A stretch of DNA of 64,000 nucleotides from Sphaerotilus mobilis (GTDB lineage Bacteria > Pseudomonadota > Gammaproteobacteria > Burkholderiales > Burkholderiaceae_C): NCBI RefSeq assembly GCF_004216565.1, contig NZ_SGWV01000007.1, forward strand, positions 496,001 through 560,000. Direction: 5' to 3'. The translations under genes were made by a program, and so were the position numbers. Positions 1 to 10,493 of the stretch are shown piece by piece. The notes under the pieces were generated by a model that saw only the letters and a list, made by a program, of their open reading frames with translations, ran no database searches and was not told where the DNA came from. How positions within the stretch are numbered: position 1 is the stretch's first letter; every line of letters starts with the position of its first letter.

Positions 1-1361
1 TTGCGGCTGGTGCGACCAGGCATCAGGTCGGCCGTGTAGCTGTCGCGGAAGACGAAGCGCAGGTCCTGCTCGGTGCTGCGGTGGCGGTAGTTCAGGTCGA
101 AGGTGCCGATGGCCAGCTTCTGGTCGGTGCCGGTCAGCGTCGGGTTCTGGGTCAGCTCGGGCAGGCCGCTGATGGGCGAATCGCGGAACTCCTCCGAACG
201 GACCTTGGACTGGCCGCCGTAGTAGTACAGGCCGGCCGAGCCGTTGACCGTCGTCGTGGCGGCCTGCTTGCGCGGCGCCTCGGCCGTCGCAGCGGTCTCG
301 GCCGGCAGCGCGGCCAGGCGGGCGGCGACACGCTGGCTGTCCGGGCCGGTCGGGTAGAGCTTCAGGAAGGTCTCGAACTCGCGCCGCGCGCGGGCCGTGT
401 CGCCCGCGTTCAGGCGCACCAGACCGATCAGTTCCTGCGCCTCGCGGGAGGCGCGGTTGGGCGGCAGGTCCAGCAGGCGGTTGAGCCGGTCCAGCGCGCT
501 CGCCGTGTCACCGGCCTGGTTGGCGGCGCGGGCCTCGGCCAGGAGCGTGGCGGCCGTGGCTTCGACGTTGACGGGCACCCCGGGTGCTGCCTGCGCGGTG
601 GGGGCAGGCGCCGCCGGCAGGGTCACGATGGCCGCCCCCGGGAAGCGGGCCCGCGCGATCTCGAGCGCGCGGCGCGCCTCGGCCACATCGGCAAAGGGGC
701 CCAGATGGATCTCGTGCCGCGTCTGGCCGTCGACCACGCGGGTGGCGGTGTTGACGTCCAGCGACTGCAGCTGCTTGGGCACCGGCACGTTGAGCTGCAG
801 GTTGGGATCGGTCGAGCTTTGCAGCACGATGACCGTGGCGCCGCCGGCGGCCAGCGCCGGGGCCAGGGCCGTGGCTGCCGGGGCCGATGCCGTCGGTGCG
901 GCCTTCACGCGGGCGCCCAGGCCGGGCAGGACCAGCTCGATGCTGCGGTTGTCACGCCCGGCGCGCACCCGCATGCGGGTGGCCGGGTCGATGCGCACGA
1001 CCAGCTTGCGCTGGGTCACGCTGCCCAGCAGCGGTTCCTCGTTGACCGTCAGCGTGGGCAGGCCGTTGATGGCCTGCAGGCGCCGCTGGCTGGGCTGGAT
1101 GGCGGCATCGCGCAGGTCCGGCGCGTCGAAGTAGATCTGGAACAGGTCACCGCTGCGGGTGCTGACGCTGCGGCCGTAGCGCACCAGGGTCTGCAGGCGC
1201 ACCTGCACGATCGCATCGGCGCCCTCGCGGCGCAGCTCCAGCTCGTCGAGCAGCTGGGCCCGGGCCACGGACGGGGCCAGCGTCAGGCAGGCGACGACGC
1301 AGGCGAGGGCCAGAGGAGCCAGTGGGGCCAGTGCTCGGTGCGGTTCTTGGCGATGGATCAC
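1..1361 (-). CDS. Outer-membrane porin with periplasmic SPOR-like/TPR region (3' end outside window)
   Basis: Last gene of the cytochrome operon, 66 bp after the 24-heme gene; 453 codons are visible and the frame runs off the window. The GTG start at 1361 has an AAGGA seven bases upstream. Residues 1-35 form a signal peptide ending ARA|Q. A beta-rich domain of AMIN-like look follows, then a SPOR-like stretch (HEIHLGPFADVAEARRAL), then at least two TPR-like helical repeats (about residues 280-350). The visible C-terminal part (GSAGLYYYGG... TFDLNYRHRS) looks like the first strands of a beta-barrel. I infer a porin that holds a multiheme cytochrome across the outer membrane, with the N-terminal domains in the periplasm. 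The domain calls are by eye; a plain TPR lipoprotein cannot be excluded without the missing 3' part. Confidence 0.6.
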   Translation of the reverse strand, partial: MIHRQEPHRALAPLAPLALACVVACLTLAPSVARAQLLDELELRREGADAIVQVRLQTLVRYGRSVSTRSGDLFQIYFDAPDLRDAAIQPSQRRLQAINGLPTLTVNEEPLLGSVTQRKLVVRIDPATRMRVRAGRDNRSIELVLPGLGARVKAAPTASAPAATALAPALAAGGATVIVLQSSTDPNLQLNVPVPKQLQSLDVNTATRVVDGQTRHEIHLGPFADVAEARRALEIARARFPGAAIVTLPAAPAPTAQAAPGVPVNVEATAATLLAEARAANQAGDTASALDRLNRLLDLPPNRASREAQELIGLVRLNAGDTARARREFETFLKLYPTGPDSQRVAARLAALPAETAATAEAPRKQAATTTVNGSAGLYYYGGQSKVRSEEFRDSPISGLPELTQNPTLTGTDQKLAIGTFDLNYRHRSTEQDLRFVFRDSYTADLMPGRTSR

Positions 1362-1427
1362 GGTCGGGTCCTTGCTGTCGTTCTTGTCGGGTGCGTGGCG
1401 GGACGGCGCGGGCGCGGCGCGCCGGCC

Positions 1428-3530
1428 TCAGTCCCAGTTCGTGTAGGTGCTGCCGGAGTTGCCCAGCGGGCGGTGGCAGCCGGACATGGAGCAGTCGGTC
1501 GGCACCGGCGAGCGACGCTCGTGCGTGAGCGATTCCTTGTCCATGTTGCCGAGGAAGTTGGTGCCGCTGAGGTGGCAACCCTTGCACCAGCCCGCGCCGT
1601 TGCCCATCGTGCCGTTGTGGTTCATGCGCACCGTGGTCCAGGCCGTCGTGCCGGTGTGGCAGGACTTGCAGTCCAGCGAGGCGCCGTTGAGCAGCTGGGT
1701 CGCCTCCGGGATGTGGTTGGTCGGCTTGCCCAGCGCACCGACGATGCCCTGCGAGACAAAGGCGCCGCTGTGGCAGCTCTTGCAGGTGGCGGTCGCCACG
1801 ACGTTGTGGTTCATCGTCACGGCGGTCGCAAACGAGCTTTGCGAGCGGTGGCAGGAGTCGCACTTGGCCGTGCCCACTGGCACGGGGATGTGCGTGCCCG
1901 GCGGCTTGCCCTTGGCCTGCACGCCGTTGTGGCAGGTGTCGCAGGTGCCTGTCCCCACCGCGTTGGCCGGCGAGTGGGCGAAGGTGGCCGAGGCCCAGGA
2001 CGACGTGCTGCGGTGGCAGCTCTCGCAGTTGCCGGTCACGCCGATGTGCACGCCGGTGTTGGGCTTGACGGCGATGTGGCAGGTCGCGCACTGGCTGGTC
2101 ACGGTGATGCTGGCGTGCAGCCGCGCGGGCGTCCACGACAGGTAGCCGGCCTTGTGGCAGGTGTCGCAGTTGGTGATCGCCACGCCGGTCAGCGACTGGT
2201 AGGGCACATGCGTTGCCGGACGTCCGTCGGCCGGCGGGTAGCTGCCGCTGTGGCAGGTGCTGCACTGGTTGGTGACGACCACCTGGCTGTGCGTGAAGCG
2301 GTGCGGCTTCCAGCCGGTCGTCGTGTGGCAGCTGATGCAGTTGGTGGCGGCCACGGGGATGTGCGTCATCGGCTTGCCGGTCGCGCCACTGCCGTTGTGA
2401 CAGGTGGTGCAGTTGGTCGCCGTGGTGAAGGTGCTGTGGTTGACCGCCGTGCTGGCGGCCCAGCTGGTGGTCGACTTGTGGCAGGTGTCGCACTGCGCGG
2501 TCGTCACCAGGTGGGTGGCCGACTTGCCGCTGGCGTTGTTGCCGTTGTGGCAGGTCGAGCAGGTGTTGGCCACCACCATCTGGCTGTGGTTCCAGCTGCT
2601 GGGCGTCCAGGTGGTCGTGCTGTGGCAGGACGTGCAGTTGAGCGTGCCAGTGGTGATGTGGCGGGCCGTCTTGCCGGTGGCGGTCGTGCCGTTGTGGCAG
2701 GTCGAGCAGTTGGTCGCGGCCGAGAAGGTGCTGTGGTCGACCTTGGTGCTGGCCGTCCAGCTGGCGGTCGACTTGTGGCAGGTGTCGCACTGCGCCGTCG
2801 TCACCAGGTGGGTGGCCGACTTGCCGCTGGCGTTGTTGCCGTTGTGGCAGGACGAGCAGGTGTTGGCCACGGCCATCTGGCTGTGGTTCCAGCTGCTGGG
2901 CAGCCAGCCGCGGGTGCTGTGGCAGCTGGTGCAGTTGAGCGAGCCGGTGGCGATGTGACGGGCGGTCTTGCCGGTCGCGCTGCTGCCGTTGTGGCAGCTC
3001 GCGCAGTTGGTGGCGGCGGTGAAGGTGCTGTGGTCGGTGCCGGTCGCGGGCAGCCAGGCGGTGGTGCGGTGGCAGGTGTCGCAGCTGGCGGTCGTGGCGA
3101 TGTGGTTGGTCGGCTTGCCCGGTGCGTTGCGGGTGTTGTGGCAGGTCGCGCAACTGCCGCGGGCGACGCCGGCATGGCTGAAGCGCGCACCGCTGAAGGA
3201 CTGGCTGGTGTGGCAGGTCTGGCAAGGCGCCGTGGTCGGGATGTGGTTGGCCGACTTGACGGTGTTGTTGCGGGCCAGCCGGCTGCCACTGGTGTGGCAG
3301 GTCTGGCAGTCGCGCGGCGTGCCCTTGAACACACCGTTGACGTGGCAGGACTCGCAGCGCTCGCGTGCATGGGCACCGCTCAGCACGAAGCCGGTGCGGT
3401 TGTGGTCGAAGTCGCGGCCCATGGTCTGGGCCTGCGCGGCGGGGGCGATCAGGCCGCTGGCGACGAGCACCAGCAGGGCCAGCAGGTGCCGCAGCAGCGA
3501 CATCAGGTCAGGCGTTCGGGGCTGGTTCAT
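1428..3530 (-). CDS. Secreted multiheme c-type cytochrome, 24 CXXCH plus one CX4CH
   Basis: A 700-residue protein with a signal peptide (MNQPRTPDLMSLLRHLLALL... AQAQ, about residues 1-35). I count 24 CXXCH heme-binding motifs and one C-terminal CX4CH (CSMSGCH). The linkers are rich in Ser, Thr, Asn and Gly, with repeated GKxxxH elements. That low-charge, Ser/Thr/Asn-rich composition contrasts with the Lys/Asp-rich partner encoded upstream and suggests a surface-exposed or porin-embedded cytochrome. I chose the start at 3530 because it is preceded by GGAG and overlaps the upstream stop as ATGA (3527-3530), implying translational coupling; a longer frame upstream is Arg-rich and unlikely. The middle carries a tandem duplication. 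The protein is probably part of an electron conduit; donor and acceptor are unknown. Confidence 0.85.
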   Translation of the reverse strand: MNQPRTPDLMSLLRHLLALLVLVASGLIAPAAQAQTMGRDFDHNRTGFVLSGAHARERCESCHVNGVFKGTPRDCQTCHTSGSRLARNNTVKSANHIPTTAPCQTCHTSQSFSGARFSHAGVARGSCATCHNTRNAPGKPTNHIATTASCDTCHRTTAWLPATGTDHSTFTAATNCASCHNGSSATGKTARHIATGSLNCTSCHSTRGWLPSSWNHSQMAVANTCSSCHNGNNASGKSATHLVTTAQCDTCHKSTASWTASTKVDHSTFSAATNCSTCHNGTTATGKTARHITTGTLNCTSCHSTTTWTPSSWNHSQMVVANTCSTCHNGNNASGKSATHLVTTAQCDTCHKSTTSWAASTAVNHSTFTTATNCTTCHNGSGATGKPMTHIPVAATNCISCHTTTGWKPHRFTHSQVVVTNQCSTCHSGSYPPADGRPATHVPYQSLTGVAITNCDTCHKAGYLSWTPARLHASITVTSQCATCHIAVKPNTGVHIGVTGNCESCHRSTSSWASATFAHSPANAVGTGTCDTCHNGVQAKGKPPGTHIPVPVGTAKCDSCHRSQSSFATAVTMNHNVVATATCKSCHSGAFVSQGIVGALGKPTNHIPEATQLLNGASLDCKSCHTGTTAWTTVRMNHNGTMGNGAGWCKGCHLSGTNFLGNMDKESLTHERRSPVPTDCSMSGCHRPLGNSGSTYTNWD
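2412..3005 (-). repeat. Tandem 297-bp (99-residue, four-heme) duplication inside the cytochrome gene
   Basis: Two consecutive 99-residue units (3005-2709 and 2708-2412) each hold four CXXCH motifs in the same order and spacing: CxxCHNG, CTSCHST, CSxCHNGNN, CDTCHKST. The two are nearly identical in protein and mostly identical in DNA. A third, diverged unit starts at 2411. This points to growth of the heme wire by unequal recombination. Confidence 0.85.
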
Positions 3531-5548
3531 GAGGGACTCCGGTTCGATCGGGCGGGCTTCTGTGCGGGTGCGACGGGCGCGGCGGGTGCGGCGGGTGCGG
3601 CCGATGCCGCCGGTGCCGCCGGTGTCGCCGATGTAAAGGCAGGCGCCGGACTCATGCTGCGGTTGACGATGCGTTTCCACCGGTCGACCACGTGGCACTG
3701 CTCGCAGCGGTTGCCGAAGGCGCCGTCGTGCACGTCGTCCTTGCGGTGGCAGGCCACGCAGGTGGTGCCGGTCGGGGCGACCTTCTTGCCGGTCGGTGCC
3801 GGCCGGCTGTGGCAGGTGATGCAGGCGACCTTGGCGTGCGGGCCTTCCAGCCGGTAGCTGGTCTGGCGGTCATGGTCGAAGTTCCAGATGCCCCAGGACC
3901 GCGTGTTGTGGCAGCTCTCGCAGCCCACGCCCAGCGTCAGTTTGTGCTTGTCGGCCTTCTTGTGGCAGCTGTAGCAGTCCATCGGCGCGTCCTTGAAGCG
4001 CGCGCCGGTGGTGTGGCAGTCCTTGCAGACGGTGGTGATGTGGCGGCCGGTGAGCGGGAAGCGCGTCTTGGCGTGGTCGAAGCCGATGGTGGTCTTCCAG
4101 GTCTTGTCGGTGTGGCAGTTCTCGCAGCGCGGGCCGAGCTGGCCTTCGTGCTTGTCGTCCTTCTTGTGACAGCTCAGGCAGTCCAGCGGCGTCTTGCGCA
4201 TCTCCTTCAGGCTCTTGTGGCAGGCCTTGCATTCGAGCTTGGGCACGGCATGGCCGTTGCGCAGCGGGAACTGGGTCTTGTCGTGGTCGAACTTGCCCTT
4301 GGTGGTCTTCCAGTCGCGCTCGCCGTGGCAGGCACCGCAGTCGCGGCCCAGGGTCTTCTCGTGCTTGTCGTCCTTCTCGTGACAGCCGATGCAGTCCTTG
4401 GGGGCCTCGTTGAAGACCTGCGACTTGTGGCAGGCCTTGCACTCGGCCTCGATGTGCTTGCCCAGCAGCGGGAACTTGGTCTTGTCGTGGTCGAACTTGC
4501 CCTGGTCCTTCCAGCCGCGTTCGTTGTGGCAGGACGCGCAATCCTTGCCCAGCGTGCCCTTGTGCTTGTCATCCTTGACGTGGCAGCTCAGGCAATCGCT
4601 CTTGACCGGGTTCTTGTAGAGGTGGCCGGTGTGGCAGGCCTTGCATTCGAGCGGCTTGTGCTTGCCCTTGAGCAGGTACTTGGTGTCGACGTCATGGTTG
4701 AAGGTGCTGGGCTTCCAGGCCTTGGCGTTGTGGCAGCTCTCGCACTTCTCGCCGTACTGGCCCTGGTGACCGCGACGGCCCTTGATCAGCTGTTCGTCGT
4801 CCTTGCGGTGACAGCCGATGCAGGTGCGCGGCGTCTCGCGGTAGTTGCTGTCGCGGTGGCAATCGCCGCACTTGGCATCGGCGTGTTTGTCCTTGAGCGC
4901 AAAGCGGGTCTTGTCGTGGTCGAAGGTGGTCTTCTTCCAGTCGCTTTCGGTGTGGCAGTCGGCACACTTCGGGCCCAGCGAGCCTTTGTGGGTGTCGTCC
5001 TTCTTGTGGCAGGACAGGCAGTCCTGCGGCGCCTCGCGCCACTTCTTGCCGGGCAGGTGGCAGCTCTTGCACTCGGTCTTGATGTGCGCGCCGCGCAGCG
5101 TGTAGTCGGCCAGGCCGGTGTGGTCGAAGGTCTTGGGATCGAACTCGACGATGCGTGCGTTGCGGCCCTTGTGGTCGGTGTGGCAGTCGCGGCACGGCGC
5201 TGGCTCGGCGGCCAGCTTGCGGCCGTGGAAGCCGGCCTTGTCGCGCACGTCCGCGCCAATGTCCTTGTGGCAATCGATGCACAGGCGGTCCTGCGCGTTG
5301 CGGTCGAACTTGACGTGGCAGCTCTTGCACTCGGCCTCGGCCTTGGCGTGCGACTGCACCACCTTGCCGGGCGACAGCACCGACTCGATGCCCTGGGCCC
5401 GGGCGACGCCCGTGCCCGCCAGCATCGCCAACATGGCCAGGATCACGAGGACCAGGCCGGCGACCCCGCGCCGGAGCAAGGCCCATCCCGCCTGCGCGCC
5501 CTTCAAGAGGGCGCGCAGCGGATGGCAGGGGCGGTGCACATCGGACAT
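3527..5548 (-). CDS. Periplasmic 24-heme c-type cytochrome
   Basis: A 673-residue protein. A long hydrophobic N-terminus (about residues 20-52, ending VARAQG) acts as signal peptide or anchor. There are 24 CXXCH motifs, arranged as a repeating three-heme module of about 70 residues; each module has a CxxCHKKDDKHxG element followed by FDHDKTxFxLxGxH, and the free histidines could be distal heme ligands. The protein is rich in Lys and Asp, unlike the Ser/Thr-rich cytochrome encoded downstream. The C-terminus is a low-complexity Ala/Pro tail. The start overlaps the upstream stop by one base (TGATG), and the 3' end overlaps the next gene by four bases. I infer a periplasmic relay between the inner-membrane b-type protein and the outer-membrane porin/cytochrome. 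Confidence 0.85.
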   Translation of the reverse strand: MSDVHRPCHPLRALLKGAQAGWALLRRGVAGLVLVILAMLAMLAGTGVARAQGIESVLSPGKVVQSHAKAEAECKSCHVKFDRNAQDRLCIDCHKDIGADVRDKAGFHGRKLAAEPAPCRDCHTDHKGRNARIVEFDPKTFDHTGLADYTLRGAHIKTECKSCHLPGKKWREAPQDCLSCHKKDDTHKGSLGPKCADCHTESDWKKTTFDHDKTRFALKDKHADAKCGDCHRDSNYRETPRTCIGCHRKDDEQLIKGRRGHQGQYGEKCESCHNAKAWKPSTFNHDVDTKYLLKGKHKPLECKACHTGHLYKNPVKSDCLSCHVKDDKHKGTLGKDCASCHNERGWKDQGKFDHDKTKFPLLGKHIEAECKACHKSQVFNEAPKDCIGCHEKDDKHEKTLGRDCGACHGERDWKTTKGKFDHDKTQFPLRNGHAVPKLECKACHKSLKEMRKTPLDCLSCHKKDDKHEGQLGPRCENCHTDKTWKTTIGFDHAKTRFPLTGRHITTVCKDCHTTGARFKDAPMDCYSCHKKADKHKLTLGVGCESCHNTRSWGIWNFDHDRQTSYRLEGPHAKVACITCHSRPAPTGKKVAPTGTTCVACHRKDDVHDGAFGNRCEQCHVVDRWKRIVNRSMSPAPAFTSATPAAPAASAAPAAPAAPVAPAQKPARSNRSPS

Positions 5549-6504
5549 CAGTAGGCGTGCACCGCGATCACGTGCACGACGCCCGCGATCACCAGCAGGA
5601 ACACGAAGGGGATGTGGGCCACGTGCCAGAGCGCGAAGACACGCTCCCAGGCGGCGAACAGCGCCACCCGCATCACCGCCACAAAGTAGGACACCAGCGA
5701 GCGGCGCGCCTGACGCTGGCGCTGGCGCAGCAGGCTGCCCTGCCAGTTCTGTTCACGCGCCAGCACACGCAAGGCCAGTCGGATGTCGCGCTGGGCCTTC
5801 AGGCGCACCGACCAGCTGCGCACCGGCAGCACCAGCAGCAGGCGCAGCCAGTGGCGGCCGGCACCGGCCTTGACCGAGCCACGCTCGACCACGTCGGCCT
5901 CGAAGGCGTTGAGGGATTCCTGCACCTGCGGCGCAAACCACAGCATGGAGCGGCGCTCGCCATCGAAGCCCATCTGTCGCCGCAATTCGCCCAGGGCATT
6001 GCGTTCTGCGACGAGGCCACGGTTGACGCGCACGTACAGGAATCGGCCGATCACGCCGCTCGCGGCGACGATGCACATGCTGTAGAGGGCGGCGGCGGCA
6101 TTCATCGAGCCGACCTGGAAGCCGCAGTGCAGCAAGATGAGCAGCGGCCCGCCGATGCCCAGCACCATGTGGCCGGCCAGCCAGACCTTGGGCGAGCCCC
6201 AGCCGCGCATCGCGCGCACATGCTTGCGCAGCGGATAGAGCAGCAGCAGCAACATCATCGAGCCGCCCACGACCCCGAGCCAGTAACCGATGTCGTCGCC
6301 GGCTGTGAAAAAACCGCGCCGGCTGATTTCCCAAGCCCCACCCAACAGGGTGCCCAAGGTGACCAGGACCGAGGCATTGCGCTGTCCGCGCTGACGCGCC
6401 GGCGCGTTCGTGTCTGCACGCGCCGATGAGCCGGCGTCGGCCTGCGGACGGGCCGTGACCTGGCCGGCATGGGCCGGATGCGAGGCGGACAGTGCAGTGC
6501 TCAC
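5548..6504 (-). CDS. Inner-membrane b-type cytochrome-like protein with two H-x13-H pairs
   Basis: First gene of the operon; 318 residues, GTG start with AGGA nine bases upstream. After a 42-residue hydrophilic N-terminus come about four hydrophobic segments (residues 45-62, 70-93, 106-130, 134-158). A soluble Arg-rich part follows, then a C-terminal hydrophobic region (about 270-318). Two histidine pairs have the 14-residue spacing of membrane heme-b ligands: H112/H126 (GHMVLGIGG...LLHCG) and H297/H311 (AHIPFVFLL...VHVI). The likely role is a quinone-linked diheme cytochrome b exchanging electrons with the periplasmic cytochrome. I do not recognise a named family. The heme assignment is inferred from histidine spacing only. 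Confidence 0.65.
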   Translation of the reverse strand: MSTALSASHPAHAGQVTARPQADAGSSARADTNAPARQRGQRNASVLVTLGTLLGGAWEISRRGFFTAGDDIGYWLGVVGGSMMLLLLLYPLRKHVRAMRGWGSPKVWLAGHMVLGIGGPLLILLHCGFQVGSMNAAAALYSMCIVAASGVIGRFLYVRVNRGLVAERNALGELRRQMGFDGERRSMLWFAPQVQESLNAFEADVVERGSVKAGAGRHWLRLLLVLPVRSWSVRLKAQRDIRLALRVLAREQNWQGSLLRQRQRQARRSLVSYFVAVMRVALFAAWERVFALWHVAHIPFVFLLVIAGVVHVIAVHAY

Positions 6505-6886: not shown

Positions 6887-9037
6887 TCACGCGTCGGGGC
6901 GCACACGCTCGGCGACCCAGACCGCGTGGCGACCCGACTGCTTGGCGGCGTAGCAGGCCAGATCGACCGCGTGCATCAGCACATCGGGCTCGCGCAGGGG
7001 CGGCTCGATGACCAGCACACCGACGCTGGCCCCGACCTGCAGCAGGTGCTCGCCCCAGGGCAGGCGGATCTGCTCGATCGCCTGCTGCAGCTTGTGCGCC
7101 AGACGTTCGGCCGCCGGCGGATCGCAGGCGTCGAGCAGGACCGCGAACTCGTCGCCACCCAGCCGCGCCACGCACTCGTCGCGGCGCAGGCTGCTGTCCA
7201 GAGCCCGCGCGACCGCCCGGAGCATCTCGTCGCCGGCGGCGTGGCCGGCGCTGTCGTTGACCTGCTTGAACAGGTCCAGGTCGATGAACAGCAGCGCCGC
7301 ACCCGACCAGGGCAAGGACTGCTGTTCGGCCAGCCGCTGGCGGTCGACCAGTGCCGCCAGCGAACGCTCGAACTGACGCCGGTTGATCAGCCCGGTCAAC
7401 GCGTCGTGGCTGGCGCTCCATGCCAGCTCGCGCTGGTCGGCACGCTCGCGGGTGACGTCGCGCAGCAGCCAGATGGTGCCGGCGCCCGAGTCGCTTGGAT
7501 CGACCGGCCGCCCGACCAGCTCGCCGATGAAGCGACCACCGTCGCGCCGGACGAACTCGTGGTCGCCGCTGTAGCGTCGCCCTTCGGCAAAGGCCTGCAC
7601 CACCTTCGGTCCGAGCCCGGCGTACTCCTCGTCGGAGGCATAGATCAGCCGGGCCGTCTCGCCGACCAGGCCGCCGGGTGGATGGCCAAACAGGCGGCAG
7701 AACTCATCGCTGACCAGCTCGAAGGTGCGCGAGCGGGTGAAGGCCAGACCGATCGGTGCGGTGCTCATGACCGATCTCAGCTTGACCAGCAGCTCGGCAT
7801 TGCTGGCCTCGGCACGGACCTGTTCCTGCAACGCGGCGCGCAGCGCGTGCTCCAGCTCGCCGACCTCGCCGCTGGCATCGGGCCAACCCTGTTCGAGCGG
7901 AGGGCCACCCGGCCCAAGCAGGCGGGTGCGGTCTTCCAGCCGGGAGAGCGGCCGCAGCAACCACGTCACCCAGGCCCAGAGCAGCAGCATGGCCAGCAGC
8001 GCCATCAAGGCACCAAAGGCGATCGCCTCGCGCACGCCGGAGCGCAGGCCACCGAGCAGCGCATCGGAGCTGGCGACGCGGAAGATCATCCAGTCCGGCC
8101 CGGGCACGCCCGCTGCGGCGACGACGTAGCCGGCGTCGCTGTAGGCCTCGGGCATCGGCTCGATCGGACGCCCCGCCCTCACCCACCGCGCGGCCGCCAG
8201 GCGCAGGCCGGGCACCTCGTCGATCTGGCGCAGCACGACGGCGGGATCCGGGTGTGCGAGCACGAGGCCGCTGGCGTCGGTGATGATCGTCTGCATCACG
8301 GCGGGATCCGCGGCCATCTGGGTGCTGAGGCCGTAGAGCAGATCGCTGGAATTCAGCTTCAGGGTGCCCAGCAGCACCGCCCGCAGCTGGCCATCGGCGC
8401 CCAGCACCGGCATCGTCAAGGCGACGATCGCCTCGCGCGAGACGCGGCCGATCAGCGGCTCGGAAATCATCGGCCGACCCTGGTGGCGGGTGGCCAGGAA
8501 ATAGGCCCGGTCGCCGATGTGGATGTCAGGGTGGCCGATGTCCGCCCCGTTGCGCAGCACCAGCACGCGGCCATCCAGGTCGACCAGCGCGATGGTCGAG
8601 AACAGCGTGGCCAGCACCTGGCGCTGGCTCATGTAGCGCTGCTGGGCCAGCCGGTCGTGCAGGACCAGGTCGTCGACCGGCTGGGCAGCCGCCCGCAAGG
8701 CCAGCTGCAGCCGCACCACGCGGTCACGCAGCAGGACCGCGAGGTGATCGACATTGGCCGCCTCGTTGTCGAGCACCGCCTGTTCGCTGTGCAGCGCCCC
8801 GCGCTGCACCACCACCGTGGTGACGGCGATCACGCTGACGGCGATCAGGGCCCCACAGGCCAGCGCCAGCTGCAGCCGCAAGGAGCCGAACCACGGCGCC
8901 AGCTGGCGCGGCGCTCGCCGCAGCAGCGCTCGAACACGGATCAGGGGTAGGGACCAGAGGGACACGAAGGCAGTGTAGGGACGCCCTGAGGCGTCGCCAC
9001 CGGGATCAGACCAGCTTGAAGCTCGCCACCGTGTCAT
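6887..9037 (-). CDS. Membrane diguanylate cyclase (Cache-PAS-GGDEF)
   Basis: A 716-residue protein from the longest start. TM1 is at about residues 52-76 and TM2 at about 340-362, with a double-Cache-like periplasmic sensor between them. A PAS-like domain (about 440-550) and a GGDEF domain (about 560-716) follow, the latter with an intact RLGGDEF motif, so it should make cyclic di-GMP. The inhibitory I-site is not standard: RRDE sits where RxxD is expected. The ATG at 9037 overlaps the upstream chemoreceptor gene by 32 bp; a GTG at 8965 is an alternative start but has no visible ribosome-binding site. It is probably co-transcribed with the chemoreceptor, linking motility and c-di-GMP control. 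Confidence 0.9.
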   Translation of the reverse strand: MTRWRASSWSDPGGDASGRPYTAFVSLWSLPLIRVRALLRRAPRQLAPWFGSLRLQLALACGALIAVSVIAVTTVVVQRGALHSEQAVLDNEAANVDHLAVLLRDRVVRLQLALRAAAQPVDDLVLHDRLAQQRYMSQRQVLATLFSTIALVDLDGRVLVLRNGADIGHPDIHIGDRAYFLATRHQGRPMISEPLIGRVSREAIVALTMPVLGADGQLRAVLLGTLKLNSSDLLYGLSTQMAADPAVMQTIITDASGLVLAHPDPAVVLRQIDEVPGLRLAAARWVRAGRPIEPMPEAYSDAGYVVAAAGVPGPDWMIFRVASSDALLGGLRSGVREAIAFGALMALLAMLLLWAWVTWLLRPLSRLEDRTRLLGPGGPPLEQGWPDASGEVGELEHALRAALQEQVRAEASNAELLVKLRSVMSTAPIGLAFTRSRTFELVSDEFCRLFGHPPGGLVGETARLIYASDEEYAGLGPKVVQAFAEGRRYSGDHEFVRRDGGRFIGELVGRPVDPSDSGAGTIWLLRDVTRERADQRELAWSASHDALTGLINRRQFERSLAALVDRQRLAEQQSLPWSGAALLFIDLDLFKQVNDSAGHAAGDEMLRAVARALDSSLRRDECVARLGGDEFAVLLDACDPPAAERLAHKLQQAIEQIRLPWGEHLLQVGASVGVLVIEPPLREPDVLMHAVDLACYAAKQSGRHAVWVAERVRPDA

Positions 9038-10271
9038 CCAGCCGCTCGCCCTCGGCGCTGAGCGCGTTCGAGGCCAGCGCCATCTGGTCGACCAGGCGGT
9101 GGTTCTCCTGGGTCAGCTCGCCCAAGCGGCGCAGCTCGGCGAGGATTTCCTGCGAGCTGGTCTGGCCGGCGCGGGTCAGGCCCACGATCTGCTGCATCTC
9201 GTCGTGGATGCGTTCGACCTGGCTGTCGGTCTGGCGCAGCGCCTGTGCCGCCTCGCCGGCCAGCACATGGCCCTGGGCAATGTCGTCGGTCGAGCCGGAG
9301 ATGATCTCGCCGATGCGGCGGGCCGACTCGGCGCTGCGGCCGGCCAGGCTGCGGACCTCCTGGGCGACGACCGCAAAGCCGCGCCCGGCCTCGCCCGCCT
9401 TGGCCGCCTCGATCGAGGCGTTGAGCGCCAGGATGTTGGTGCGGAAGGCAAGGTTGTCGATGAGCGCGACGATCTCGACGATCTCGCGGCTGCGGCTTTG
9501 CAAGGCCTGCATGCGGTGATCGAGCTGCGTCATCTGGTGGCGTGCATGGGCAGCGTCGAGGCGCATGCGCTGCACCACCGCCTCGGCCTCGTCCACGCGC
9601 AGGCCGCTGGCATCGAGCTGCTCGATGTACTGGCCGACCCCCGCCAGCACCTGGTCGATGGCCGCCGCCGCCGCCGCTGTGCGACGTGCCAAGTCGTGGT
9701 TGCCAGCGGCGATCTCGCGCGAGGCGTGCGAGGACGCCGCCACACCTTGACGGACCACCGCGAACAGGTCGGCCAGACGGCCCAGCGACTGGCCGAGCGA
9801 GTGCATCGCATGCGCCACCTCGTCGCGCCCCCAGGGCTGGGGCCGCATGCTGAGGTCGCCACTGGCCATGCGACCGACCTGCTCCTTCAGATGGGTCAAG
9901 CCGCCATGGGTGACGCGGTAGAAGGACAGCAGCATGTAGAGCGCCAGCGCCAGACAGAAGCCGATGCTCATCAGCAGCAGGGTCATTTCCTGCGGGTCAT
10001 GGGGCTGGTGCTCAAAGAGCCGGTGCAGGGCCAGCGCGAGCGGCAGCATGAAGGCGGTGGCCAGCAGGGTGGCCTTGCCACGCACCGACATCGCCCGCAT
10101 CAGGCGCACGCCCGGCGCGTAGATGCCGTGGTAGCGGAAGTAGTTGCGCAGGGCGGTGCTCGCGCCGTCGTGACCTCGTCGGTCGGCGTCACCCGCGTCA
10201 AGACCGGCGGCGGGATCCGGGTGGGTCGGGCTCAGGTCAGGCGGCGATGGCGCCACGAGGTTCATCGACAT
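9006..10271 (-). CDS. Methyl-accepting chemotaxis protein (short, two TM)
   Basis: A 421-residue chemoreceptor. The ATG at 10271 is preceded by AAGGA at good spacing; more upstream frame exists but reads through a GGGT repeat and is rejected. A hydrophilic N-terminus precedes TM1 (about 65-85) and TM2 (about 96-117) with almost no periplasmic loop, so it probably senses membrane or cytoplasmic signals. A HAMP-like segment and the conserved signalling hairpin follow (NLAFRTNILALNASIEAAKAG, a standard CheA/CheW-binding tip). It is divergent from the main chemotaxis operon. Confidence 0.9.
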   Translation of the reverse strand: MSMNLVAPSPPDLSPTHPDPAAGLDAGDADRRGHDGASTALRNYFRYHGIYAPGVRLMRAMSVRGKATLLATAFMLPLALALHRLFEHQPHDPQEMTLLLMSIGFCLALALYMLLSFYRVTHGGLTHLKEQVGRMASGDLSMRPQPWGRDEVAHAMHSLGQSLGRLADLFAVVRQGVAASSHASREIAAGNHDLARRTAAAAAAIDQVLAGVGQYIEQLDASGLRVDEAEAVVQRMRLDAAHARHQMTQLDHRMQALQSRSREIVEIVALIDNLAFRTNILALNASIEAAKAGEAGRGFAVVAQEVRSLAGRSAESARRIGEIISGSTDDIAQGHVLAGEAAQALRQTDSQVERIHDEMQQIVGLTRAGQTSSQEILAELRRLGELTQENHRLVDQMALASNALSAEGERLDDTVASFKLV

Positions 10272-10282
10272 CCAACTTCCTT

Positions 10283-10301
10283 GGTGGGTGGGTGGGTGGG
10301 T
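10283..10301 (+). other. G-quadruplex motif, four GGG runs with single-T loops
   Basis: Four consecutive GGGT units on the plus strand form a canonical parallel G-quadruplex sequence with one-base loops, the most stable class known. It lies 12 bp upstream of the chemoreceptor start at 10271, just beyond its ribosome-binding site, on the template strand for that gene. Confidence 0.7.
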
Positions 10302-10493
10302 GAGTGGCTGAGCGGCGCGCGCGACAGATGGACGCCAGCACAGACCCGATGAAGCGATTCTTCCGTGACGCCTGTCCACCGATACCTGAGAAGTAAACGG
10401 TTCCGCCGGCCGATATCCGGGCATCGCCGGGGGCCTTACCGCCCGACAGTTGAACCTGAGCGCTTCGGCATGCCCGTCCGGCAGGCAGGTTGG

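Follow-up and report, generated by a model that had tools for sequence, protein, structure and literature searches.

Among the described porin-cytochrome clusters, the PCC3 type was defined by He et al. (2017; PMC5566968) as comprising a porin, an extracellular multiheme cytochrome, a large periplasmic multiheme cytochrome and an inner-membrane protein (IMP) predicted to have five helices, with no MtrA. Reported carriers include Leptothrix cholodnii SP-6, L. ochracea L12 and Sideroxydans lithotrophicus ES-1 (PMC5566968), and the type is termed functionally unverified in PMC12442390. PCC3 together with UetJ has been reported in mobilis-type Leptothrix (Group 2), with 10-57 hemes per subunit, most commonly 21-29 (PMC13386937). 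The MtrCAB, MtoAB and PioAB systems would work alike, by means of a periplasmic cytochrome and a porin, with or without an outer cytochrome. Here, we describe a four-gene cluster located at the beginning of a 64,000-nucleotide stretch of Sphaerotilus mobilis DNA (hereafter the window; positions 496001-560000 of contig C1, in a genome of 4.65 Mb and 15 contigs). Judged from its sequence, this cluster is PCC3 itself, i.e., a further member of a type described in 2017 and reported in Leptothrix, and it runs on into a ccm (heme-attachment) operon.

The four genes are arranged on the minus strand in the order IMP, 24-heme cytochrome, cytochrome with 24 CXXCH motifs and one CX4CH motif, and porin candidate. 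The following features were distinguished:

5548..6504, minus strand: IMP, 318 aa, likely a di-heme b-type protein at the quinone side of the conduit (motifs, conserved gene order)
6127..6171, minus strand: first HX13H of the IMP, H112 to H126 (alignment, numbering by translation)
5572..5616, minus strand: second HX13H of the IMP, H297 to H311 (alignment, numbering by translation)
3527..5548, minus strand: periplasmic-type 24-heme cytochrome (P0003), 673 aa, Lys/Asp-rich, with 24 CXXCH
5144..5401, minus strand: N-terminal heme module of P0003, residues 50-135, which would face the IMP (co-occurrence of module and IMP)
5315..5368, minus strand: signature G-x5-H-x6-CxxCH at the first heme of P0003 (comparison of IMP-partner cytochromes)
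1428..3530, minus strand: extracellular-type cytochrome (P0002), 700 aa, Ser/Thr-rich, with 24 CXXCH and one CX4CH
1473..1493, minus strand: CX4CH heme site of P0002, first Cys 21 residues from the C-terminus (position from translation)
1..1361, minus strand: outer-membrane porin candidate, of which the N-terminal 453 aa lie in the window (in relatives, the second cytochrome is followed by a porin homologue)
621..773, minus strand: SPOR-like stretch, porin residues 197-247 (17.8 bits against a Pfam cut-off of 21)
312..521, minus strand: TPR stretch, porin residues 281-350 (TPR_9, TPR_6, TPR_14)
L009:3247-10900 (contig C1:487247-494900, just left of the window), same strand as the porin: ccm operon (NCBIfam matches)

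The junctions are close. One base is common to the stop codon of the IMP gene and the start codon of the first cytochrome gene (TGATG), the two cytochrome genes overlap by 4 bases (ATGA), and a gap of 66 bases separates the second cytochrome gene from the GTG start of the porin gene (1361), whose full frame (L009:10890-13361, 823 aa) ends at contig C1:494890. The ATG of ccmA overlaps the porin end by 11 bases, and further ccm genes then follow on the same strand.

The likeness to PCC3 comprises a porin candidate, a low-complexity extracellular-type multiheme cytochrome, a large periplasmic multiheme cytochrome and an IMP with two WX3HX13H motifs and SGxxG, while the junction with the ccm operon sets the window cluster apart. 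The IMP is close in size to its PCC3 counterparts (318 versus ~300 aa), and the residues of its two W-x3-H-x13-H motifs and its SGxxG motif (W108/H112/H126, S149-G150-G153 and W293/H297/H311) are invariant in 25/25 aligned proteins. Its hydropathy peaks are located at residues 51, 83, 116, 143 and 304, with minor peaks at 122, 131 and 151, the PCC3 definition specifying five helices. We infer from the motifs that the IMP would bind two b-type hemes. The large periplasmic-type cytochrome P0003 (K 11.6%, D 8.3%) contains 24 CXXCH motifs, against a chance expectation of ~0.3 for a protein of that size, computed from its Cys and His content. The spacing of these motifs shows an autocorrelation of 0.80 at lag 3, which indicates three-heme repeats; its identity to the same gene product encoded beside the IMP in relatives is 42-85%. 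In the second cytochrome, P0002, which is rich in small residues like the extracellular subunit of PCC3 (T 15.7%, S 11.0%, A 10.4%), this periodicity is weak (0.27 at lag 3). Each of the two cytochromes has 27 His residues outside the heme motifs, i.e., enough to provide a second axial ligand at each heme. Homology of the 24-heme cytochrome or the IMP to a solved structure was considered and dropped, since nothing usable was found among the structure matches.

An earlier note on this DNA, made from the sequence alone, had described a tight operon of the porin-cytochrome type, encoding an inner-membrane b-type-like protein, a Lys/Asp-rich 24-heme cytochrome, a Ser/Thr-rich cytochrome with 24 hemes plus CX4CH and an outer-membrane barrel candidate. 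The positions and close junctions of the four genes and the heme motif counts and compositions of the cytochromes agree with that description, as does the reading as a porin-cytochrome type cluster with a likely quinone-side b-type protein. The genes co-occur in many genomes, a point on which the earlier note had made its reading depend. Its view that the cluster is related to PCC3 but lacks a short MtrA-like decaheme cytochrome has to be revised, as PCC3 in the account of He et al. includes no MtrA, and a new PCC type proposed for want of MtrA was rejected on the same grounds.

Other described types fit the cluster less well. None of the five matches to the DmsE-family decaheme model in the genome exceeded the cut-off, and the MtrB/PioB model, which finds matches in 23/274 genomes of the class, had none in the porin or elsewhere in the genome. 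Kinship of the porin with MtrB/PioB was likewise rejected in a profile-profile comparison (probability 6.9%, E 0.005, 32 columns). PCC4, described as a porin with three periplasmic multiheme cytochromes and no extracellular one, was rejected because the window encodes two large cytochromes, one of them of the extracellular type. The pairs of an IMP with a 7-, 8- or 10-heme cytochrome share the IMP-like protein and the N-terminal heme module, but their cytochrome is short and no PCC3 porin homologue stands beside it in 17 fetched loci; pairs of a multiheme cytochrome and an IMP are mostly on record without a porin (PMC5566968). In the same genome, an IMP-like gene is located beside that of an 8-heme cytochrome with the same heme signature (L052:8463-9847; contig C3, ~64.5-65.8 kb), with no PCC3 porin homologue beside it.

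The closest named relative, Leptothrix discophora CCM 2812, encodes four proteins with 83-87% identity in a comparison of open reading frames (ORFs) and with the same heme counts; in the longest pieces, the DNA identity is ~88-90%. The genome also carries a Uet-like locus (L162; contig C1:398000-416000), encoding an 11-heme protein, triheme proteins and a frame with 4 CXXCH. Because of the L. discophora match and the Uet-like locus, the window cluster likely falls into the same group as that of the mobilis-type Leptothrix (Group 2, PMC13386937), and it thus probably belongs to a group in which PCC3 has already been reported.

Within the order, IMP matches were found in 27/200 genomes, including that of S. 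mobilis. In all nine strongest other genomes (E < 1e-29), the IMP has as neighbours a cytochrome of 24 or 27 hemes and another multiheme cytochrome with 11-62 CXXCH, and in eight of them a porin homologue lies within the fetched stretch; in the exception, L040, the fetched DNA stops shortly after the second cytochrome, and L129, a named locus on a contig of equal length, includes the porin start. The remaining 17 matches were weaker, and 10 of them were fetched. Across the phylum, 16/398 genomes gave an IMP match. Apart from S. mobilis and one genome already covered, 10 of the other 14 loci were fetched, comprising four PCC3 loci (24, 24, 24 and 21 periplasmic hemes) and six with 7-, 8- or 10-heme partners. 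In a scan of named genomes, the best 80 of 365 loci with an IMP contained a periplasmic cytochrome in 78 cases, a second cytochrome in 70 and a porin in 29, the lower counts being partly a limit of the data, since the end of the contig or of the fetched stretch cuts many second cytochromes. PCC3 loci are spread over many genera. Two of them, assigned to 'Methanoperedens' (L112) and 'Rhizobium' (L131), adjoin betaproteobacterial sequences in the tree, and for this reason are probably misbinned contigs.

The heme number of the periplasmic subunit is nearly constant in this sample. Among 72 periplasmic-type ORFs that are whole in the fetched stretch, 66 encode 24 CXXCH, two 21 and one 27, the other three being fragments with 3, 9 and 13 motifs. 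The sample derives from the best 80 IMP matches, mostly of Burkholderiales, so that relatedness inflates this uniformity. The second cytochromes vary: 33 are whole in the fetched stretch and, with three fragments (4, 4 and 11 CXXCH) set aside, the remaining 30 range from 12 to 67 motifs. The contrast between a fixed and a variable subunit is already implicit in print, and 24 is not universal, since median numbers of 21 and 34 hemes were given for the periplasmic and outer subunits by He et al. (PMC5566968), and 21, 24 and 27 versus 10-35 hemes for those of Gallionellaceae in PMC10734462. As in the window, 20/30 second cytochromes carry a CX4CH close to the C-terminus (20-21 residues away), 3/30 have a CX3CH at 30-31 residues from the end, and 7/30 have neither. 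A second outer-cytochrome type, with 36-67 CXXCH, another C-terminal end and no CX4CH cap, was observed in L068, L078, L088, L103, L125, L129 and L136.

At its N-terminus, the 24-heme protein matches the 7-, 8- and 10-heme IMP partners in the region of their first heme. The signature G-x5-H-x6-CxxCH is found at the first heme in 17/17 other fetched IMP-partner cytochromes and in 75/76 PCC3 periplasmic cytochromes (those with at least 12 CXXCH), the lone exception (L078) being the second piece of a gene split over two frames. It occurs at only 1/1687 other heme sites of these 76 proteins and, in second cytochromes, at the first heme in 0/71 and at any heme site in 7/2156 cases. When the module alone was searched for in 200 genomes of the order, 25 had a match, 24 of which also had an IMP match; at the thresholds used, G064 has the module (a 40-residue match) without the IMP, and G109, G113 and G185 have the IMP without the module. 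In the 24 shared genomes, 26 module matches adjoin an IMP match, with two each in G000 and G131 and all gaps below 1 kb, and one further weak match in G000 lies inside the second cytochrome. A hydrophobic stretch precedes the signature heme in 17/17 partners (19-residue hydropathy 2.1-2.8), and in two of the four partners scanned (L058 and L171) an FHA domain above the Pfam cut-off precedes it; both would be expected if the module sits just outside the inner membrane. Five further loci (L049, L050, L055, L057 and L059) encode 10-heme cytochromes beside IMP relatives that by eye resemble the 10-heme ones of L058 and L171, that of L050 lacking an FHA match. Because signature and module track the IMP partners, we infer that the 24-heme cytochrome would dock on the IMP with its N-terminus and point with its C-terminus towards the porin.

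In the ccm operon, CcmA to CcmG matched above the NCBIfam cut-offs, and CcmH-like (NrfF) and CcmI-like (NrfG) matches remained below them; the single CcmF_C match of the whole genome is located in this operon. In the named-genome set, ccmA directly follows the porin gene on the same strand, within ~32 bases, in 12/20 testable loci, i.e., those in which the sequence continues for at least 600 bases beyond the porin ORF (L136, with 265 bases after the porin, was left out). In other loci ccm genes lie upstream of the IMP gene on the same strand (L093, L113, L116 and L129) or on both sides (L123), and beside the decaheme-type pairs L050, L051, L053, L056 and L057 they lie on the opposite strand. 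On a tree of 72 periplasmic cytochromes, obtained by a quick search, the distribution of linked (13 rows) and unlinked (8 rows) loci needs at least five changes, at least three of them forced by well-supported branches, which implies more than one origin of the linkage or repeated losses; there is no clear clustering of the labels on the tree (58/500 shuffles gave values as low). Because the genes run on into the ccm operon, the PCC3 parts are probably produced along with the heme-attachment machinery, from what would be a common transcript. The string 'ccm' is absent from the main texts of PMC5566968, PMC12442390, PMC12016527 and PMC8788666, and its sole occurrence in the main text of PMC13386937 is a strain number. 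In the main text of PMC10734462, CcmH and a bactofilin CcmA are listed in a table of genes distinctive of iron oxidisers, without a tie to PCC3. None of these six main texts mentions the PCC3-ccm link.

The porin candidate carries a TPR region, with TPR_6 (28.1 bits against a cut-off of 26.3) and TPR_14 above their respective cut-offs and TPR_9 below its own (E 4e-7, 30.3 bits, cut-off 35). Of the SPOR/TPR-like domains named in the earlier note, the TPR part is thus confirmed and the SPOR-like stretch falls short of its threshold. The TPR region is a family trait instead of a peculiarity of this porin, TPR_9 being found at E <= 0.01 in 16/20 porin relatives. In 20 aligned rows the C-terminal residue is F in 13, Y in two, and I, L, Q or T in five, one of which is cut by the contig end. 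Barrel families of Pfam gave weak matches in isolated rows (DUF481 in 2/20, LamB in 1/20 and OMP_b-brl in 1/20), and the matches of the porin profile to solved structures fall in the TPR part, save one weak match elsewhere. The candidate is a homologue of the porin that recurs in these clusters and may be a beta-barrel, for which the support is indirect.

Upstream of the operon, the minus strand encodes a dCache-PAS-GGDEF protein (window positions 6887-9037) and a methyl-accepting chemotaxis protein (9006-10424); part of the former gene is also present at this position in L. discophora (83% DNA identity). As for the ends of the operon, no sigma-70-like promoters were found (chance expectation 0.3), and five terminator-like sites were observed, compared with 4.5 by chance. 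A plasmid relative of the locus was sought and rejected, as every one of 41 records had less than 60% identity.

We consider it likely, on the basis of gene content and motifs, that the cluster encodes an electron conduit spanning the entire cell envelope. The IMP would hold two b-type hemes and exchange electrons with quinone, and the 24-heme cytochrome would dock on it by its N-terminal three-heme module; composed of three-heme repeats, this cytochrome would span the periplasm and enter the porin, from which the Ser/Thr-rich second cytochrome would carry electrons outward. Most likely, the conduit exchanges electrons with extracellular donors or acceptors at a quinone-level potential, e.g., Fe(II) minerals or humic matter, and its direction of flow depends on conditions, the sequence setting none.

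Several observations weigh against such a conduit. In the ES-1 proteomes of a magnetite study, the outer cytochrome belonging to one PCC3 cluster was 0 in all eight proteome columns; the IMP and one porin were at middling percentiles (26-63), with lower values for another porin and for the periplasmic cytochrome (PMC12016527). The 10 weaker IMP matches fetched from the order stand beside 8- or 10-heme cytochromes with no porin homologue, and an IMP alone therefore does not mean PCC3. The IMP itself has neither an accepted Pfam match nor a usable PDB match. As for the porin, a scan for amphipathic strands gave 18 peaks at the strictest threshold, against a shuffled mean of 12.7 (maximum of 300 shuffles 19), and 20 against 17.2 and 22 against 21.0 at looser ones; as this excess is modest, a strong argument for a barrel from amphipathicity was dropped. 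Common descent of the IMP-cytochrome pair, not docking, could explain the shared module. Finally, ccmA directly follows the porin gene in none of the seven loci L044-L048, L163 and L165 (four genera), and a universal ccm linkage was rejected (12/20 in one locus set, 0/7 in the other).

The nearest named relative being L. discophora, a dedicated Fe(II) oxidase supplying the quinone pool with electrons for growth has to be considered, but several of the relatives belong to genera that are not known as iron oxidisers. PCC3 is present in several iron oxidisers (PMC5566968, PMC10734462, PMC13386937), yet in few of the known ones according to He et al. (PMC5566968). Expression data point both ways: in Sideroxydans CL21 the expression of both PCC3 copies exceeded the mean and the copy-2 IMP was up in iron-oxidation-capable cells (PMC12442390), whereas in Sideroxydans ES-1 both clusters were downregulated on Fe(II) (PMC8788666). 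The ES-1 result is evidence against Fe(II) oxidation as the main role; the use in Fe(II) or Mn(II) oxidation that the earlier note considered is conjectural, and we regard the dedicated Fe(II) oxidase as unlikely. The reverse use of the cluster, i.e., disposal of surplus quinol electrons to minerals or other cells at oxygen shortage, is compatible with an architecture that leaves the direction free and with the presence of PCC3 loci in many genera. We rate it as rather unlikely in this specific form, since the sequence gives no direction and the sections of the published PCC3 accounts used for this comparison contain no low-oxygen expression or physiology.

Passage of Mn(II) electrons through the conduit appears very improbable. 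These electrons sit at a potential well above that of ubiquinone, so that a quinone-linked IMP could not use them downhill. In addition, the genome contains 10 Cu-oxidase_2 matches, some in the same frame, and this is the enzyme type that PMC13386937 names for the oxidation of Mn(II). In favor of Mn(II), multicopper oxidases of L. cholodnii that oxidise Mn are named in the same paper, which also cites studies of Mn oxidation in L. discophora, and according to PMC9634551 Mn(II) oxidation was lost in ccm mutants of Pseudomonas putida. It is also improbable, if somewhat less so, that both cytochromes stay periplasmic and store electrons instead of forming a surface wire. A capacitor role is discussed in PMC10734462, and the second cytochrome has by eye an ordinary signal peptide with no lipobox, so that no surface anchor is evident. 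Against this, a porin gene is part of the same cluster and recurs in relatives, and a type II secretin above the cut-off is encoded in the genome, a possible export route by which P0002 could leave the cell.

Three results go beyond the PCC3 papers considered here, namely the ccm junction, the signature at the first heme, and the constancy of 24 hemes in the periplasmic cytochrome against the variable outer one. Joining them to the envelope-spanning conduit, we tentatively propose, as a possibility held with less than even confidence, a modular wire, in which a fixed quinone-end unit (the IMP and the N-terminal module) is reused, eight three-heme repeats act as a ruler of the periplasm, the outer part varies between 12 and 67 hemes, and the whole often forms one transcription unit with ccm. 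If this is true, the quinone-end unit would be common to the short 7-10-heme systems and PCC3. The signature provides a simple search string for cytochromes that would exchange electrons with this IMP. Since PCC3 recurs in many genera, such comparisons sharpen the questions of which end of the cytochrome faces the IMP, how heme number relates to the periplasm, and whether PCC3 and ccm share a transcript.

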